Shown: positions 4,562 through 14,705 of the stretch, piece after piece
How the letters are laid out: each line of letters opens with the position of its first letter
How positions within the stretch are numbered: the stretch's first letter is position 1
From: Candidatus Bathyarchaeota archaeon
GTDB taxonomy: Archaea; Thermoproteota; Bathyarchaeia; Bathyarchaeales; UBA233
Reading direction: 5' to 3'
Length of the DNA: 14,791 bases
Assembly (NCBI GenBank): GCA_007050895.1
Contig: SMYP01000024.1
Span: 1-14,791, forward strand
The notes under the pieces: generated by a model
What the model saw: the letters and a program-made list of their open reading frames with translations, nothing else
What the model was told of the DNA's origin: nothing
Database searches by the model: none
Translations under genes and position numbers: made by a program

Positions 4562-4613
4562 GAATTTGCAGATAAAACATCACGATCCACCTTCTGTTTT
4601 GGATTGTGCGTTC

Positions 4614-5948
4614 ATGAGGAAAACCATATTCAGGAAGCTTGAAGCGCAAGGACTAATTGCAAACTATAATCGTTTCAGAAAGAATCTTCCGTCGAAACTT
4701 CCCAAAAGAGTTTTTATCTGGGATGAAACCTTCCGAGAAGGTCTTAAGTCCCCCACAGTGTTTTTGACCTACGTTGAGCAAGTTAAGCTTGCCAAGTTAA
4801 TGGATGAAACTGGAATATCCATAATCAACGTAGGTTTTCCCGCCCTCTCTGAAACCGATAAACATAACGTCAAAAGAATCGTCAACGAAAACTTCAAGAA
4901 CGCAACGCTCACAGCATCAGCGCAAGCTACAAGAGAAAGCGTTGAAGCTTGCTTAGAATGCAGAATAAGAGAAGTAACAATAGAAACGCCGTTTAATGGA
5001 TTCAACCTCAAGTATCGACTGAAAATGACCCAACAGCAAGCGTTGAAGAAAATCGTTGAAAGCATTGAATACGCCCAAAAAAACAATGCAAGAGTGAACT
5101 TTACGCTTATCGATGCTGGAAGAACTCCTGTTGAAGAGATTTTGCAGGTTTTTGAAGTCGCAGTAAATGCTGGTGCAACTAGGTTAGTCTTAGCCGACTC
5201 AGTTGGTTTTCTCAGACCACTCTCCATGCGATATTTGATATCTCACGTAAGAGAAGGCTTGCCAGAAGACATCAAGCAAAAGGCAGAGCTTTCAGTTCAT
5301 TGCCACAACGACTTTGGTTTGGGTACAGCCAACACTTTGGCTGCAGTGGAAGAAGGCGTAACTCACCTTCACACATGCATTGCAGGTTTCGGAGAACGCT
5401 CAGGCATAGCGCCTTTCGAAGAGGTAGCTACCGCACTGGAACTACTGTATAACATCGATACCGGCGTTGATTTAGCGAGGGTTCATAGGCTTGCCCAGTC
5501 AGCTGGAAAAGCACTGGCATTGCCACTTCAATTCCATAAACCGATAGTAGGTGATGGCATTTTCACTCACGAAGTAGATCAGGATTTAGAGGAGATGCAA
5601 GCTCACCCGCTGCTTTTTGAACCTTTTCCGCCACAAATTGTTGGACGCGAAACATCACTATTCATAGGTAAGAATACAGCGCAAACTTTAATTCAACAAC
5701 TTTTGGAGAAAGCGGGAATAAGAGCTTCACCTAGACAGATGGACGAGTTGTTTAGGCGGCTCAAAGGTCCTCAGGAAAGCTTGGATAAAGGCGAATCTCA
5801 AATGACATTTTATCAGGTTAAGAAGCTTATGAAGGACTTACAGAAAGGGTATTCTATGTGGGATTTTTGGCGTTTGGTTGAGCAGATAACTCGACAAAAA
5901 CCAAAGCTCCAAGAAACAAAGAAAAAAGCTGATTCTGAAACTGATTGA
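4614..5948 (+). CDS. HMGL-like (DRE-TIM) enzyme, isopropylmalate/homocitrate synthase superfamily
   Basis: A protein of 444 residues from the ATG at 4614, or 460 from a TTG at 4566. I prefer the ATG because the only TATA-like stretch lies just before the TTG. The TIM barrel begins with the metal and catalytic motif DETFREG (Asp37, Arg41 in ATG numbering), where the family usually has DxTLRDG. The second metal motif HCHNDFGLGTANTLAA is complete at 229-244, and GFGERSG matches the family's GxGER segment. Enzymes of this group condense acyl-CoA with a 2-oxoacid (IPMS, homocitrate or citramalate synthase) or cleave such products. About 130 residues follow the barrel, ending in a charged Lys/Glu tail; I cannot assign a LeuA-type regulatory domain to them. 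Substrate is not predictable by eye. It is convergent with the radical SAM gene at 5982-7001. Confidence 0.8.
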   Translation: MRKTIFRKLEAQGLIANYNRFRKNLPSKLPKRVFIWDETFREGLKSPTVFLTYVEQVKLAKLMDETGISIINVGFPALSETDKHNVKRIVNENFKNATLTASAQATRESVEACLECRIREVTIETPFNGFNLKYRLKMTQQQALKKIVESIEYAQKNNARVNFTLIDAGRTPVEEILQVFEVAVNAGATRLVLADSVGFLRPLSMRYLISHVREGLPEDIKQKAELSVHCHNDFGLGTANTLAAVEEGVTHLHTCIAGFGERSGIAPFEEVATALELLYNIDTGVDLARVHRLAQSAGKALALPLQFHKPIVGDGIFTHEVDQDLEEMQAHPLLFEPFPPQIVGRETSLFIGKNTAQTLIQQLLEKAGIRASPRQMDELFRRLKGPQESLDKGESQMTFYQVKKLMKDLQKGYSMWDFWRLVEQITRQKPKLQETKKKADSETD

Positions 5949-5974: not shown

Positions 5975-5996
5975 CAGCTGGTTACAAACCCAGCTG
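5975..5996. terminator. Hairpin between two convergent genes
   Basis: CAGCTGG (5975-5981) and CCAGCTG (5990-5996) form a perfect 7-bp stem with an 8-nt loop. The loop contains the stop codon of the minus-strand radical SAM gene, and the hairpin lies 27 nt past the stop of the plus-strand enzyme gene. There is no long T-run on either side, so a role as two-way terminator or mRNA 3' end is possible but not certain. Confidence 0.4.
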
Positions 5997-7001
5997 CTGC
6001 TTTATTTCAGCTATTTCTTCCTGTCTAATGTTTTTGGGATAATTATACATTGGTCCGCTTGGCTTCTCATTATAGAATGGGCGGTTACAGTTCAGGCATC
6101 CTGAAGTTAGGAATGGTTTACCAGTTTCCACAATCGATATAAGGCTTTCTTTTTCAATCCCGTAATCTGTCAAACAGCCAGCGTCGCTAAAGCACATGTT
6201 TTCAGAGCGACCATACCCTTTGACAATCAAATATCTCGCTAGTTGAATTTTCCTGTAAGATTCAATTAGTGGCTGTGTTCTAGTTTCCAATGCAGTGCCG
6301 CGAACTGGGGTGAAAGCGAAAAGAGCTGGTGAAACGTCCATGTCAACACATCTTTGGATCAAACTAACAGCATCGTTTTCCGTTTCACCCAACCCGATGA
6401 TTAAATGTGTACTGACTTTTCCTTTACCGAAAATTTTAACTGCTTCGCTAAGTTGCCTAAACTGGTTTTCCCAACTGTAAGGCCCGTGCGCTCTTTCGCC
6501 TTTAACTTCGTTAAACAGTTCTTCGGTTACTGCGTCTATGGCAATGCCGATTCTTTCTACACCAGCTTCTTTTAAATCTCGTATATTCCTGCTGTTTATA
6601 GGTTGACAGGAAACCGAAACTGGAGCTTTCGAGTGTTGGCTAATCGCTTTTACCAAACCGACAAGATGTTTGAAAACATCATGATAATTCAGGGCCTGGA
6701 TGCAAATCCGCATTATTCTACCTTCAACTGTAGAATTTTCGAGTTTTTGAAGAACTATACTTGTAAGAAATAAGGGCCATGTAACTCTGGAGAGAAGTTC
6801 TGCTTTGCTGCGGCTGCTTCGTGCTTGAGAGCAAAAACCGCAGTTAGCAGTGCACTTACCCGATATATAGGTCATGAGATAAGCGGTTGTGGGTTCAGCC
6901 TTTACTTTGCCTTCTAAAAGCCCGAGAAGTATTGCGGAGCCTGTTGAGACGCGAATTTGATACGGCAAATCCGTCTCTTTACAAGTCAGATTTTTCCTCA
7001 T
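5982..7001 (-). CDS. Radical SAM protein, LipS1/LipS2-type lipoyl synthase subunit (biotin synthase-related)
   Basis: A 339-residue radical SAM enzyme. The cluster motif CTANCGFC (C50, C54, C57; CxxxCxxC) follows the characteristic start EPTTAYLMTYISGKC. Four more cysteines, C270 and C276 (CFSDAGC) and C302 and C305 (SGCLNCNRPFYNE), group near the C-terminus and could hold an auxiliary Fe-S cluster. The size and BioB-like layout fit one half of the two-protein lipoyl synthase shown in Thermococcus kodakarensis (TK2109 plus TK2248), which adds sulfur at C6 and C8 of a protein-bound octanoyl group. The partner type is encoded divergently at 7611-8612. I cannot say from memory which is LipS1 and which LipS2. 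A true biotin synthase is the alternative, but no other biotin gene is present. A TATA-like box at 7029-7037 suggests a near-leaderless message. Confidence 0.75.
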   Translation of the reverse strand: MRKNLTCKETDLPYQIRVSTGSAILLGLLEGKVKAEPTTAYLMTYISGKCTANCGFCSQARSSRSKAELLSRVTWPLFLTSIVLQKLENSTVEGRIMRICIQALNYHDVFKHLVGLVKAISQHSKAPVSVSCQPINSRNIRDLKEAGVERIGIAIDAVTEELFNEVKGERAHGPYSWENQFRQLSEAVKIFGKGKVSTHLIIGLGETENDAVSLIQRCVDMDVSPALFAFTPVRGTALETRTQPLIESYRKIQLARYLIVKGYGRSENMCFSDAGCLTDYGIEKESLISIVETGKPFLTSGCLNCNRPFYNEKPSGPMYNYPKNIRQEEIAEIKQQLGL

Positions 7002-7028
7002 TTTTCCACTAAGAAGAATGAGTTGAAT

Positions 7029-7037
7029 GATATATTA
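7029..7037 (-). promoter_or_regulatory. TATA-like box for the minus-strand radical SAM gene
   Basis: On the minus strand TAATATATC lies about 30 nt before the ATG at 7001. Transcription start would fall around 7006, making the message nearly leaderless, in agreement with the lack of a clear ribosome binding site. Confidence 0.45.
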
Positions 7038-7163
7038 GGTTAAAGCTAGATAGATCGGGAAAATTAGCATGATGCACTTGTCTTTCAATGAATTTCCCTG
7101 CTCCATAAAAAAGCAGCGAAAACCTGGATTCTTAGTTCGGCGAATGTTTTTCTTTCAAGATTT

Positions 7164-7179
7164 AGAATTCACAAATTCT
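7164..7179. promoter_or_regulatory. Inverted repeat, candidate operator in the divergent promoter region
   Basis: AGAATT (7164-7169) and AATTCT (7174-7179) are perfect inverted copies around CACA. They sit just upstream of the TATA box of the winged-helix gene, where archaeal regulators often bind. The nearby winged-helix protein is the natural candidate binder. Short A/T-rich palindromes are common, so confidence is low. Confidence 0.3.
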
Positions 7180-7180
7180 T

Positions 7181-7190
7181 TATTTTAAAA
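7181..7190 (+). promoter_or_regulatory. TATA box for the winged-helix/radical SAM unit
   Basis: TATTTTAAAA lies about 35 nt before the ATG at 7221, predicting transcription start about 7211 and a leader of about 10 nt. The 219-nt gap 7002-7220 holds this promoter, the opposite one and the palindrome, and no gene that I can see. Confidence 0.5.
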
Positions 7191-7220
7191 GCTTAGAGTT
7201 CATAAACGGGATGTGCAGGC

Positions 7221-7574
7221 ATGAAAAAGTCAAAACTGGAACTTTATGAAGAAATTCTTTATGCATTAGTCAATAAGCGTTTAACGGTTGACGCCATTGC
7301 TTATGCCTGCAGCATGGACTGTGTTATTCTCCGCAAGAGAATCGAATTTTTACTGCAACAAGGTCTTGTGGAAGAAAAAACCTTTAGAAAAATAACCTGT
7401 TTTGGCTTAACAAGGAGAGGCTTGGCGATCTTTAAAACCTTAGCTCTTACAAAACGCTTAGAGAAATTGCAGACTACGATGAAACCCTTAGACGAAACAT
7501 TGCAGGCAATTCCTTCCCTATCGAAGTACAAAAGAGAAAGAGCAAAACGGCAAAGGCAAGACAAAAACTATTAA
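7221..7574 (+). CDS. Small winged helix-turn-helix protein
   Basis: A 117-residue protein of the small archaeal winged-helix kind (HTH_45-like). Residues about 8-75 carry the fold: helix ELYEEILYALVNK, a turn, the recognition segment ILRKRIEFLLQQGLVEE, a wing at about 53-62 and LTRRGLAIFKTL. The rest is a basic helical tail (SKYKRERAKRQRQ) that may add DNA contacts. It probably acts as a cytoplasmic DNA-binding regulator. It is followed after 36 nt by the radical SAM gene at 7611 on the same strand, so the two are likely cotranscribed. It is divergent from the other radical SAM gene, a position that would let it control both. One cysteine pair (C29, C34) is present at the predicted HTH; whether it senses anything is unknown. 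Target and ligand are inferred only from position. Confidence 0.72.
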   Translation: MKKSKLELYEEILYALVNKRLTVDAIAYACSMDCVILRKRIEFLLQQGLVEEKTFRKITCFGLTRRGLAIFKTLALTKRLEKLQTTMKPLDETLQAIPSLSKYKRERAKRQRQDKNY

Positions 7575-7610
7575 ACAAGCTGCAATAGTTTTCTTCGAAG
7601 CGAAAGAACA

Positions 7611-8612
7611 ATGTATCTCCCAATAGAGACAGTTTGGCGCATGAGCGCGAAAGAACTTATAGATCTGCTAAACTCTGGCGAGCTTGCTCCAAAACCTAAA
7701 AAAGTGCTATTCTACGTGCCGAGCTTCATGTATTACAAAACAAGCTACTATCGTTCCTCGCAATTTCATTTTCCCACATTATCATTGACAGGCACCTCTT
7801 GTGCCTTAGACTGCAAACACTGCGGAGCCAAAGTCCTAGAAACGATGCAGCCAGCTGAAACACCTGAAAAACTTTTTGCACTAGCTTCAAAACTGAAACA
7901 CCATGGCGCTTTAGGCTGCTTATTGAGCGGCGGGTGCCTTCCAGACGGATCCGTCCCTCTTGGACAATTCATTCCAACCATTGAGAAAATCAAACGCGAA
8001 CTAAATTTAACAATTTTTGTTCATACAGGTATAATAGATTTGGACACTGCCATTGAGCTCAAGAAGGCAGGAATTGATGCTGCATTAATAGATGTCATAG
8101 GTTCTGAGGAAACCGCAAAAAGAATTTACGGCTTGAACGTAACCGCCGATCACTTCGTTGCCTCACTCAACGCTTTGCAGGAAGCAGGCTTAAACTTTGT
8201 GCCACATATAATCGTCGGGCTCCACGACGGTAAACTAAAAAACGAATTAGATACTCTCAAAATAATCTCTTCCGTTAGGCCTTCCGCCTTAGTTGTAATA
8301 GCCTTTATGCCGTTACTCGGAACAGCTATGGCCAATGTCAATCCTCCACAACCGATCGACATTGCCAAAGTAATAGCCACAGCACGACTGATGTTCCCTC
8401 GAACACCTATGGTATTGGGCTGCGTGCGCCCAAAAGGTAAACACCGCACCAAAACCGAAGTTCTAGCACTTAAAGCGGGAGTTAACGCTTTGGCTTTTCC
8501 GAGTGAGAAAGTAATTGAATACGCGAAAGCCAACAGCTACAAGTTTAGTTTTTCTTCTCACTGTTGCGCCCAAATTTACACGGAAGCCACCTTTCGAAAT
8601 CCTTCGAACTAG
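7611..8612 (+). CDS. Radical SAM protein, LipS1/LipS2-type lipoyl synthase subunit
   Basis: A 333-residue radical SAM protein. The motif CALDCKHC (C64, C68, C71) follows FPTLSLTGTS. The SAM-binding GGE-like site reads LLSGGC, with Cys109 in place of Glu, and a CC pair (C318, C319; SSHCCAQIY) lies near the C-terminus; such extra cysteines may serve an auxiliary cluster. The protein resembles the uncharacterised homologues of biotin synthase of archaea, one of which is a subunit of the T. kodakarensis two-protein lipoyl synthase. The complementary type is encoded divergently at 5982-7001, which strengthens the call. ATG 7611 has no clear ribosome binding site; an in-frame ATG at 7641 (MSAKELIDLL) is an alternative that keeps all motifs. 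It follows the winged-helix gene in one unit and ends at a strong hairpin terminator. Confidence 0.75.
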   Translation: MYLPIETVWRMSAKELIDLLNSGELAPKPKKVLFYVPSFMYYKTSYYRSSQFHFPTLSLTGTSCALDCKHCGAKVLETMQPAETPEKLFALASKLKHHGALGCLLSGGCLPDGSVPLGQFIPTIEKIKRELNLTIFVHTGIIDLDTAIELKKAGIDAALIDVIGSEETAKRIYGLNVTADHFVASLNALQEAGLNFVPHIIVGLHDGKLKNELDTLKIISSVRPSALVVIAFMPLLGTAMANVNPPQPIDIAKVIATARLMFPRTPMVLGCVRPKGKHRTKTEVLALKAGVNALAFPSEKVIEYAKANSYKFSFSSHCCAQIYTEATFRNPSN

Positions 8613-9326: not shown

Positions 9327-10460
9327 CTATTTGTTGTGAGTTGAAAGTACAAATCGCCTAAGCAATTGCAGTGACAGAGTTTTGTCTCTGTCACCTATTT
9401 TTCCATCTTGGACCGCTTGCTGGAGCATCTGAATTGATTCATCCATGGCTGTGCGATTCACTGGGAATGGCACACCGTCTTTGCCTCCATAAGCGAAGCT
9501 GAACTTGACAGGATCTTTCCAACTTGGTTTTTCGCCGTAAATCAGCTCTGCCACTAAAGCCAAACCCCGCACGGTAGCGGGTCCAACACCTTTTACGCTT
9601 AAGAGTTCCTCGTAGTTTCGAGGTTGTAATTCATAAACTCGCTTCATTGTTTCCCAGCTTATGTTTCTAGGCATATTGAGCTCTTCAAGAGACCATTGCC
9701 ACGGGTCAGTTTTTTTGTCTGGCAACCATTCTTGAAGGGATTTCTGATGGAGTGGTCTTGTAGCCTCGAACATGCGCATTATCTTGTTTGTGGGTTCCTT
9801 AGCTATGTCCACAGAGACTTTTCGTGCACCCTCGCTATTTTCAGCGGTCATGTTGAGGGCTTTTTTACGTTTTACTTCTCCGACCGCGGCATTATGCGGT
9901 TCAACAACAAAGCTATGTGTATTGTCGGATAACCAGTGATAACGTCTCGCTGTGTGGTCCTGTTTGCTCATGCCTTGCTGGACTACTGACCATTTTTCAT
10001 CTCTAGTTATCAGAAAAGTGTGATGGTAGAGGTGGTAGCCTGCTTGGATAGCGGTGTTGTCCACTTTGGCAGTCATTTTGCTTGCATAGGTTAAGGTTTT
10101 GATGGTTTGCTCTGAGAAGCCGTATTTTTTTCCTACCACGGCGATTTCGTCTGGAGTTTTTCTTGAGGTTTTGCCTTTTCCGCCACATATAGCTATGCCA
10201 TGCTCCTCAGGTGACAATGCATTTTTTAAGACACCTGTTACGACTGTAGTCACTCCTGAGCTATGCCAATCGTAAGCTAAAATACAGCCGAAAGCTTGAA
10301 ACCAGTACGGATCAGATAAACGCTGAATAAACTTGGCTGTCCCGTGCTCTTCAATCATTATGGTGACAATTTCTTTGGCTAATCTGCACATGCGTACGGT
10401 TAGCCACGCGGGTGCTTTGCCATAATGAAGTGGTAGATTAGCGAAGCCTGTTCTATGCAT
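9327..10460 (-). CDS. DUF763-family protein with helix-hairpin-helix motif
   Basis: A 377-residue soluble protein. The N-terminus (MHRTGFANLPLHYGKAPAWL) and the segments SDPYWFQAFGCILAYDWHSSG (about 49-69) and NTAIQAGYHLYHHTFL (135-150) match the DUF763 family, common in archaea and some bacteria. A helix-hairpin-helix DNA-binding motif (LLSVKGVGPATVRGLA) lies at 286-301, followed by a conserved-looking FAYGGKDGVPFPVNR (322-336). Several His, Tyr and Asp residues around 140-190 could be catalytic, but I know of no assigned reaction. DNA binding, perhaps a nuclease or repair role, is inferred from the HhH motif only. Start ATG 10460 has AAGG 4 nt upstream. It shares its divergent upstream region with the Kelch gene. 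Confidence 0.8.
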   Translation of the reverse strand: MHRTGFANLPLHYGKAPAWLTVRMCRLAKEIVTIMIEEHGTAKFIQRLSDPYWFQAFGCILAYDWHSSGVTTVVTGVLKNALSPEEHGIAICGGKGKTSRKTPDEIAVVGKKYGFSEQTIKTLTYASKMTAKVDNTAIQAGYHLYHHTFLITRDEKWSVVQQGMSKQDHTARRYHWLSDNTHSFVVEPHNAAVGEVKRKKALNMTAENSEGARKVSVDIAKEPTNKIMRMFEATRPLHQKSLQEWLPDKKTDPWQWSLEELNMPRNISWETMKRVYELQPRNYEELLSVKGVGPATVRGLALVAELIYGEKPSWKDPVKFSFAYGGKDGVPFPVNRTAMDESIQMLQQAVQDGKIGDRDKTLSLQLLRRFVLSTHNK

Positions 10461-12495: not shown

Positions 12496-13923
12496 ATGAA
12501 CGCTGAAAAGGAAAACATCTGCTTTTTTAACACGCTAACTCGAAAAAAAGAAAAATTTATTTCCATAGAAGCGGGCAAGGTAGGCTTGTATACATGTGGA
12601 CCTACGGTGTATGATTATGCTCATATTGGCAATTTCCGTGCCTTCGTGTTTGAGGATTTGCTCAAACGGTGGCTGGAATACCGTGGTTACCAAGTTGTAC
12701 ACGTAATGAATCTGACTGATGTCGATGATAAAACCATTAGAGGCAGCCAGAAACAACAAATTCCACTAAAAAAGTACACTCAACATTATACAAATGCGTT
12801 TTTCGAAGACATTAAAACCCTGAACCTCAAACCAGCGGATTATTACCCAAAAGCCACGTGTAATATCCCCGAAATGGTAGCGCTGGTGAAACAGCTTATC
12901 CAAAAAGGGTACGCGTACAAAGGTCAAGACCGCTCAATCTACTATGCAATAAGCAAATTTAGAAACTACGGCAAACTCAGCCATGTAAAGGTTGACGAGC
13001 TCAAATCAGGCGTACGTGTGAAAACAGATGAGTACACAAAAGAGGAAGCACAGGACTTCGCGTTGTGGAAAACATGGACACATGAAGACGGTGATATCTT
13101 CTGGGAGACTGACCTAGGCAAAGGTAGACCCGGCTGGCACCTAGAGTGCAGTGCAATGTCCATGAAATACCTCGGCGAAACTTTTGATATTCACTGCGGT
13201 GGAATCGATAACATGTTTCCTCACCACGAGAACGAGATTGCCCAAAGTGAAGCAGCCACGGGTAAGAAATTCGTTAATTACTGGCTCCATAATGAACATC
13301 TACTGGTTGAAGGTCGGAAGATGGCTAAGAAGTTCGGAAACTTCTACACTTTAAGAGACCTGCTTGCAAAAGGCTACGACCCAATTGCGATTCGATATTT
13401 GCTATTGTCGTCGCATTACCGCGCGCAGCTCAATTTTACTTTTGAAGCGTTGGACGCTGCGGGCGGAGCGGTTGAGCGACTGAGGAATTTTGCGCGGAGA
13501 CTTACGGATGCTAATGGAAAGGGTAGCGAAGGAAAAGTACCGGAGTTGCTGCGCAAGATGCAAGTGGATTTCGGAGGTGCCATGGATGACGATTTGAACG
13601 TGAGCGTTGCTTTGGCGGCGTTATTTGATTTTGTGCGCATTGTAAACGGACTGCTTGATGATGGAGCGATTAGCAAAAGCGAGGCAGAGGAAGTTATTTT
13701 GGTTATGAAACGGTTTGATGGCGTTTTGGGTGTGGTCGACAAAGATGTGGATGAAGAAGTGTTGTCTAAGGAGGCGAAAGAGTTAATTGCGAAGCGCGAG
13801 GTAGCACGAAATGCAAAAGATTGGGCAGCTGCTGATGCGATTCGTATGCAACTGAGTAAGATGGGTGTGCTTTTAGAGGATACAGCGCAAGGTGTTCGTT
13901 GGCGTTTTATAAAAAAGACTTAG
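12496..13923 (+). CDS. cysS: Cysteinyl-tRNA synthetase
   Basis: A 475-residue class I aminoacyl-tRNA synthetase that charges tRNA-Cys with cysteine. The N-terminal Rossmann domain shows GLYTCGPTVYDYAHIGNFRAF, with the zinc-binding Cys34 and the HIGH-type motif HIGN (43-46). Further zinc ligands are visible: Cys218 in WHLECSAMS and the HHENE segment (243-247). The KMSKS loop reads KMAKK (275-279), followed by FGNFYTLRDLL. A helical anticodon-binding region runs from about 300 to the end and includes the short DALR-like part; length matches the usual single-gene CysRS. Having this gene means the organism need not depend only on the SepRS/SepCysS route known in methanogens. It has a clear TATA box and ribosome binding site, and its stop overlaps that of the convergent lipoate ligase gene. 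Confidence 0.96.
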   Translation: MNAEKENICFFNTLTRKKEKFISIEAGKVGLYTCGPTVYDYAHIGNFRAFVFEDLLKRWLEYRGYQVVHVMNLTDVDDKTIRGSQKQQIPLKKYTQHYTNAFFEDIKTLNLKPADYYPKATCNIPEMVALVKQLIQKGYAYKGQDRSIYYAISKFRNYGKLSHVKVDELKSGVRVKTDEYTKEEAQDFALWKTWTHEDGDIFWETDLGKGRPGWHLECSAMSMKYLGETFDIHCGGIDNMFPHHENEIAQSEAATGKKFVNYWLHNEHLLVEGRKMAKKFGNFYTLRDLLAKGYDPIAIRYLLLSSHYRAQLNFTFEALDAAGGAVERLRNFARRLTDANGKGSEGKVPELLRKMQVDFGGAMDDDLNVSVALAALFDFVRIVNGLLDDGAISKSEAEEVILVMKRFDGVLGVVDKDVDEEVLSKEAKELIAKREVARNAKDWAAADAIRMQLSKMGVLLEDTAQGVRWRFIKKT

Positions 13924-14705
13924 ATTTTCCCGATTTGATTCCAGTTGTTCGTTGTATATTTGCTGATGTACAGTTTTTTGGATAGTGCCTGCTCGTCCAT
14001 GGTTAACTTACCTGGGTTCAACTGGATTTTCAGTTTTGCTTTGAAACTCTGAGTAAGTGTATTGGCTGCTGTTTCTGGAGTGACTGCGTGACCTAGTTCG
14101 TTTTGGACTGATGTGATTTTGCGTTGTGCTATTTGAGTGGCTAGACCACAGTTGTCTATGCCTTTTACGCGAAGAAGCTGAAACATGAGCGGTAAATTTA
14201 CCTTCAGCAGGAGGGTGCCATGTTGTTGAACGATGTTACGCTTTACGATTTGGGCGCTTCCGCTAATTTTACGGGATTTCACGGTAAGGTTTGGGCAGTT
14301 TTTCTGATTTCCTGTATTGAAATCAGCCGGTATGCCCAAAAGCCTAAGTGCATCAGTAATTGCAGCATAGATGGAAGTGTAGACTTGTGTAATGTCAGTT
14401 GCTTTGAGATCATTAATCAATGCAGTTACGCTATACGTCAATTCACCGTTTTGATCGTGGAAAACTGTTCCCCCGCCGCTGTTTCTGCGGACTATGTCAA
14501 CACCGAGTTTACTACATTTCTCTATATAGACAGTTTCATTTGGGACTTGATTTTTGCCTATGCTGACTGCGCTTGGTTGCCACCGGTAAAGTCTTATGGT
14601 GTTTGGAATGAGTTTTTTAGTGCGTGATTCAAGGATGGCCTCGTCGATTGCCATGTTCATAAATGCATTGTGAGTTTCGATAGGGATTAAGCGCCAAGTT
14701 TCCAT
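13920..14705 (-). CDS. lplA: Lipoate-protein ligase A family protein (lipoate ligase or octanoyltransferase)
   Basis: A 261-residue member of the BPL/LplA/LipB fold. The substrate-binding motif RRNSGGGTVFHD spans 73-84, the conserved catalytic lysine is K146 in KISGSAQ, and QQHGTLLL follows at 160-167. It attaches lipoate or octanoate to the lysine of a carrier such as GcvH or an E2 subunit. It ends after the large domain (YTTNNWNQIGKI) and so lacks the C-terminal domain of E. coli LplA; in archaea this part can be a separate LplB. No LplB is seen here. Cys137 lies 9 residues before K146, closer than the acyl-carrying Cys of LipM, so LipM activity is possible but not supported. Its presence with two LipS-like radical SAM genes in the same window suggests a lipoate assembly pathway. 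The stop codon overlaps the end of cysS by 4 bp. Confidence 0.85.
   Translation of the reverse strand: METWRLIPIETHNAFMNMAIDEAILESRTKKLIPNTIRLYRWQPSAVSIGKNQVPNETVYIEKCSKLGVDIVRRNSGGGTVFHDQNGELTYSVTALINDLKATDITQVYTSIYAAITDALRLLGIPADFNTGNQKNCPNLTVKSRKISGSAQIVKRNIVQQHGTLLLKVNLPLMFQLLRVKGIDNCGLATQIAQRKITSVQNELGHAVTPETAANTLTQSFKAKLKIQLNPGKLTMDEQALSKKLYISKYTTNNWNQIGKI

Follow-up and report, generated by a model that had tools for sequence, protein, structure and literature searches.

Could two radical S-adenosylmethionine (SAM) genes lying head to head in an uncultured archaeon together encode a lipoyl synthase? The question is raised by a stretch of 14,791 nucleotides, here called the window, which is positions 1 to 14,791 of contig SMYP01000024.1 (assembly GCA_007050895.1) of a Candidatus Bathyarchaeota archaeon. 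An initial annotation, made from the letters alone, had recognized in it two biotin synthase-like radical SAM proteins encoded divergently, with a winged-helix gene between them, and had taken them for a probable split lipoyl synthase of the LipS1/LipS2 type. The layout was confirmed from the positions of the open reading frames (ORFs) and a PF14947 match (Table 1), and both outer ORFs match the radical SAM Pfam domain. We compared the two proteins with the equivalog models of NCBIfam release 20.0, which carry curated cut-offs. The minus-strand protein reached 358 bits with the LipS2 model NF053743, clearly over its cut-off of 270, and the plus-strand protein 234.8 bits with the LipS1 model NF053742, narrowly over the cut-off of 230. 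With the BioB model the two gave 58.4 and 59.4 bits, under the cut-off of 225, and LipA (TIGR00510) was not among the 9 and 11 NCBIfam families that they matched (E <= 0.001). A search against both LipS families was what the initial annotation had proposed as a check, and its outcome, together with the low BioB scores and the conserved ligands described below, upholds the assignment. We consider it highly probable that the window genes encode LipS2 and LipS1 and that the two proteins would act together as a lipoyl synthase instead of LipA. Since both models are exceeded, the ligands are invariant and neither LipA nor BioB is over cut-off in any of 34 relatives, the pair belongs to an already described family. 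It had also been expected that databases would call such proteins biotin synthase or plain radical SAM protein. The latter name is indeed the usual one for close relatives, but NCBIfam now has dedicated LipS1 and LipS2 models. Among the best 120 of 2736 LipS1 homologues, the names given by the sources, where there was one, were radical SAM protein, uncharacterized radical SAM superfamily protein or hypothetical protein, with a single "lipoyl synthase" label.

The system to which the pair is most readily compared is that of Thermococcus kodakarensis (TK2109 and TK2248). According to PMC9585515, its LipS2 acts on the octanoyl and its LipS1 on the 8-mercaptooctanoyl substrate, the order being shown there, and mutagenesis mapped the auxiliary cluster to C230, C276 and C277, with H159 as a possible ligand, in LipS1, and to C85, C276 and C279 with H178 in LipS2. 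Like this pair, the window proteins are two radical SAM proteins with a CX3CX2C motif and a second set of Cys/His ligands. The motif cysteines are those claimed earlier, C50/54/57 of LipS2 and C64/68/71 of LipS1, and the extra cysteines noticed near the C-termini proved to be C302/C305 and C318/C319, respectively. We aligned 64 LipS2 rows and 44 LipS1 rows (two of 46 were dropped for having fewer than 290 residues) and found C50/54/57, C100, C302, C305 and H199 of LipS2 invariant in 64/64 rows and C64/68/71, C271, C318, C319 and H199 of LipS1 in 44/44; H70 and H138 of LipS1 were likewise invariant. We infer that C271, C318, C319 and H199 of LipS1 and C100, C302, C305 and H199 of LipS2 are the putative ligands of the auxiliary clusters. 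The window pair differs from that of T. kodakarensis in that its LipS1 has 37 extra residues before the motif (C64 versus C27) and in that its genes are divergent, with the winged-helix gene in between.

The tree agrees with the scores. It held 34 rows, including 14 selected LipS1 and 14 selected LipS2 sequences, three BioB, two MSMEG_0568 proteins and LipA of E. coli. LipS1 formed a single clade (support 100/98), and the BioB and MSMEG_0568 rows each formed their own (both 100/99). The branch of E. coli LipA is very long, and since the program cautions that long branches meet, the deep joins are unsure. Neither window protein fell inside BioB or LipA.

How widespread is the pair? A LipS1 scan of GTDB genome contigs gave eight loci, seven of which (L001-L007) come from Bathyarchaeota or close relatives at 62-70% identity, the eighth being a distant acidobacterial match (24%). 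In the order of genome G007, LipS2 has matches in 59 of 61 genomes (56 over cut-off, the three others partial or weak); LipS1 was found in 61 of 67 genomes at E <= 1e-20 and over cut-off in 57, genome completeness not being stated. Gene order was compared in 65 loci, 64 of them with LipS2, which come from related genomes and hence are not independent. Both lipS genes occur in 45 of these loci and are divergent in 43, which, even with this dependence in mind, looks like more than chance. Locus L001 (SG8-32-3) has almost the same gene order as the window. In 7/65 loci the winged-helix gene is the immediate upstream neighbour of lipS1, in the same orientation; GcvH comes immediately after LipS1, likewise in the same orientation, in five, of which three are near-copies.

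For the other genes of the pathway we chose by hand 34 of the 67 genomes, the seven first relatives and 27 others, favouring larger contigs and gene orders of interest. In each search several of 14 named control genomes gave matches, and for LipA and BioB these included E. coli and B. subtilis. LipA was over cut-off in none of the 34 relatives, with weak matches in seven, and neither was BioB, for which all 34 gave weak matches, the strongest being mostly LipS1 and LipS2 themselves. GcvH was over cut-off in 33 relatives, the LplA-like catalytic domain in 32, GcvT in 20, GcvP in 19 (with one further match below cut-off, in G041) and E2 in 17. In five genomes (G012:C16, G032:C10, G036:C42, G040:C1 and G052:C1) we also noted GcvH-domain matches that lie in adjacent pairs, the open frames having 201-274 residues.

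Several observations weigh against the assignment to a lipoyl synthase. LipS1 exceeds its cut-off by just 4.8 bits, and in 4 of the 61 LipS1-matching genomes the best match lies slightly under it; the grouping of LipS2 in the 34-row tree is weaker (67/93); the correspondence of the ligands to those of T. kodakarensis was established by order, spacing and invariance alone; the absence of LipA was counted in relatives of the window's organism; and 13 of the 34 relatives lack GcvP, GcvT and E2 over cut-off, and with them the usual users of lipoate.

Could the locus be a wider lipoate assembly cluster, in which the HMGL-like neighbour makes the octanoyl chain by 2-oxoacid elongation? In 14 of the 65 loci its gene meets lipS2 tail to tail, even without lipS1 next to them; the protein remains below the cut-offs of the 25 shown of 28 NCBIfam families matched, among them known synthases; and the substrate of archaeal LipM homologues is called unresolved in PMC10332631. 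However, the 17 loci that carry a member of this HMGL family all belong to a single group of 19 rows in the LipS2 tree, so that the synteny looks inherited; no homologue was found (E <= 1e-20) in nine of the 34 genomes, although LipS2 is over cut-off in all nine; and the two genes are convergent and hence not one operon. Homologue absence, tree grouping and gene order thus weaken the case for this gene as the octanoate source, which we hold to be very improbable; we judge it to be a clade-inherited neighbour outside the lipoate system. Its orthologues occur in 16 of the 34 genomes at 51-84% identity, and its metal-binding motifs, inspected by eye against what we take to be the usual ones, look altered. 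It is less probable still that the two proteins are some other radical SAM pair, MSMEG_0568-like or an uncharacterized sulfur-insertion enzyme, with a different substrate. LipS2 does score 85 bits with rSAM_MSMEG_0568, a name which 26 of the 30 plasmid matches listed for it (of 512) carry at 28-35% identity over 30-59% of the query, and the 13 relatives without the usual lipoyl-dependent complexes would suit such an enzyme; but the cut-off of that model is 303.7, far above this score, whereas the LipS2 model reaches 358 bits, the two MSMEG_0568 rows keep to a clade of their own, and GcvH proteins carrying the ESVK lipoylation motif are encoded by genomes from this set. The least probable reading is that one or both proteins are BioB and make biotin from dethiobiotin, since the name bioB of 34 of the 40 LipS1 plasmid matches listed (of 43; 22-27% identity across the list, a distant radical SAM sulfur-insertion relative), the two BioB among the three PDB matches of LipS1 (the third is PylB) and its weak BATS-domain match (20.9 bits, under the cut-off of 22.2) stand against BioB scores of 58-59 bits, a separate clade of the three BioB rows, an invariant C-terminal CC in LipS1 and CX2C in LipS2 as in the T. 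kodakarensis pair, and no biotin genes among the 9 of the window's 12 main ORFs that the family scans covered; on family scores and tree we reject a BioB or LipA identity. A PDB sequence search with LipS2 gave no match.

If the pair is a lipoyl synthase, how would its substrate be made? We propose that the LplA-like protein, whose gene lies some 5 kb from the pair, would most likely act first and join an octanoyl group to a lysine of the carrier, for which GcvH is the probable candidate. LipS2, with SAM and two [4Fe-4S] clusters, would then put sulfur at C8, and LipS1 would add the second sulfur at C6, giving the lipoyl-protein; this order is suggested by family membership and the conserved ligands. 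The LplA-like protein likely attaches octanoate or lipoate to a target protein, and its listed PDB relatives are lipoate-protein ligases and a lipoyltransferase. No LplB domain was present in the nine window ORFs scanned, and among the 34 relatives this domain (PF10437) was found in four, three over cut-off and one below. In an alignment of rows with at least 200 aligned residues, from which shorter and identical rows had been removed, C137 of the window protein, which sits in NCPNLTVKSRKISGSA, belongs to a CPN motif that a further 22 rows share, including one that is a second copy of this gene. Five rows have no Cys and a five-residue gap instead, and four of these five have LplB adjacent or fused. 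G012, which is of the Cys type, has an LplB match of 22.4 bits, below cut-off, mildly against a strict rule that Cys goes with the lack of LplB. The protein may be a ligase or a Cys-dependent transferase; a transferase would be in keeping with a lost LplB and a gained Cys. Octanoyltransferases of the LipM type use a catalytic Cys. They resemble the window protein in having no LplB domain, the Cys being conserved in the LplB-less type, and are described in PMC10332631 as derived from LplAB through LplB loss; unlike them, the window protein matched no LipM model, and its PDB relatives are ligases or a lipoyltransferase. The same paper gives lipS2-lplA-lplB-lipS1 as the typical archaeal order and describes sLpl(AB)-LipS1/S2 lipoate assembly clusters. 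The window shares with these lipS1, lipS2 and a lipoate-ligase-family gene nearby, but its order differs, lplA is distant and LplB is missing from the scanned ORFs. Two loci, L083 and L084 (G008:C3 and G009:C72), hold another LipS1/LipS2 set beside an LplA+LplB+DUF116 protein and a flavin adenine dinucleotide (FAD) protein, together with a GcvH-like protein with ETGK, not ESVK, and genes with HdrC/HdrB-type domains, and resemble sHdr-type clusters.

More questions are raised by GcvH. In fourteen of the 34 relatives no GcvP and no GcvT match passes its cut-off (G001, G016, G020, G027, G031, G033, G039, G041, G045, G047, G049, G057, G061 and G065), and in 13 of these E2 is missing too, G016 keeping it. 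All 14 have GcvH and LipS2, and 13 each have LipS1 (not G061) and the LplA-like domain (not G047). The absences are more telling in G020, G039 and G047, as these are nearly single-contig; the other genomes are fragmented, and G001 is only ~0.7 Mb. G020, G031 and G039 are near-copies and were counted as one. In the LipS2 tree (62 rows, rooted at the midpoint) the window falls among 14 rows that group together (92/90); the eight genomes tested from this group are all without GcvP, GcvT and E2, and the label of missing GcvP/GcvT needs three changes on this tree against a shuffled mean of 10.9. We infer that the absences are losses, not gains elsewhere. Judging by these relatives, the window's organism too may have an orphan lipoyl-GcvH.

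What could such a GcvH do? The lipoyl lysine is present in 25/25 GcvH rows, in an ESVK context in 22. In 16 of the 25, one of the five genes downstream of GcvH on its strand is, by motif, CoA-disulfide-reductase-like, and similarity adds two more cases (L132 and L074); three of the other seven are near a contig or stretch end. In the two sequences scanned, the best match was CoA-disulfide reductase (390-399 bits, below the cut-off of 578.8), and a dihydrolipoyl dehydrogenase was rejected as the partner at 139-156 bits with lipoamide dehydrogenase (cut-off 408.8). The spaced two-Cys pair of the lipoamide type was absent from all six reductase-like sequences. Genomes that have retained GcvP and GcvT, e.g. 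G007 (L131), also show the pair of GcvH and reductase-like gene, so that there the reductase may just be the glycine-cleavage partner of GcvH. In L120, L123, L127, L131 and L132 GcvH and the reductase-like gene stand near genes of the glyceraldehyde-3-phosphate dehydrogenase (GAPDH) and phosphoglycerate kinase families. In L028, L030, L031 and L047, lipS1, gcvH, the reductase and VhuG/VhuA-like hydrogenase genes are all co-oriented; L047 goes on with two more genes, one HdrA-like and one whose product has an HdrC-type domain. These names were taken from single representatives, whose scores stay under the NCBIfam cut-offs (VhuA 414.9 of 800, VhuG 223.1 of 450, HdrA2 778.6 of 1100), and both [NiFe] cysteine motifs were intact in 7/7 large subunits checked. 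Perhaps lipoyl-GcvH in the window's clade serves neither glycine cleavage nor a 2-oxoacid dehydrogenase, but as a dithiol/disulfide electron carrier with the single-Cys reductase, while in another related lineage it would be tied to the VhuA/VhuG-like [NiFe] hydrogenase and the HdrA-like protein, where it could replace the coenzyme M-coenzyme B (CoM-CoB) heterodisulfide. We offer this joint reading tentatively, as a possibility with somewhat less than even chances. PMC9723716 already suggests that, in Culexarchaeia, HdrB could be served by an alternative disulfide carried on GcvH. The orphan lipoyl-GcvH was not found for Bathyarchaeia in the literature searched, judged mostly at the level of listings, and neither was work joining LipS1 with this class.

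The features of the window are collected in Table 1. The 219-bp gap is presumed to be a promoter region, and the winged-helix gene, from which lipS1 is separated by 36 bp on the same strand, may from its position regulate the divergent pair. The GC content of the window is 38-47% (1-kb steps), and no tRNA was found in it by ARAGORN. A DUF763 protein (9327-10460, 436.8 bits) is also encoded on the lipS contigs L001, L002, L003, L005 and L007. Deoxyhypusine synthase, histone-deacetylase-like, transaldolase, ribosomal L1/L11 and Spt5 neighbours were set aside as unrelated housekeeping genes.

Table 1. Features of the window around the probable lipoyl synthase genes.
Feature	Coordinates	Strand	Size	Support
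HMGL-like (isopropylmalate/homocitrate synthase superfamily) protein, tail to tail with lipS2	4566..5948	+		PF00682, 219 bits
lipS2, probable LipS2 lipoyl synthase subunit (would add first sulfur, at C8)	5982..7001	-	339 aa	NF053743
Divergent intergenic region, lipS2/winged-helix gene	7002..7220		219 bp	coordinates
Winged-helix protein, candidate regulator	7221..7574	+	117 aa	PF14947 HTH_45, 29.4 bits (cut-off 25.5)
lipS1, probable LipS1 lipoyl synthase subunit (would add second sulfur, at C6)	7611..8612	+	333 aa	NF053742
LplA-like catalytic-domain protein, no LplB domain	13920..14705	-	261 aa	PF21948, 144.4 bits

For an uncultured archaeal class, genes labelled "radical SAM protein", or possibly "biotin synthase", would thus acquire a function in making lipoate, and the pair occurs in nearly all genomes sampled from the order. 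In two separate lineages lipoate synthesis and GcvH have been kept, while GcvP, GcvT and E2 were not detected. Comparing these lineages may help to test whether lipoate carries electrons outside the known complexes.

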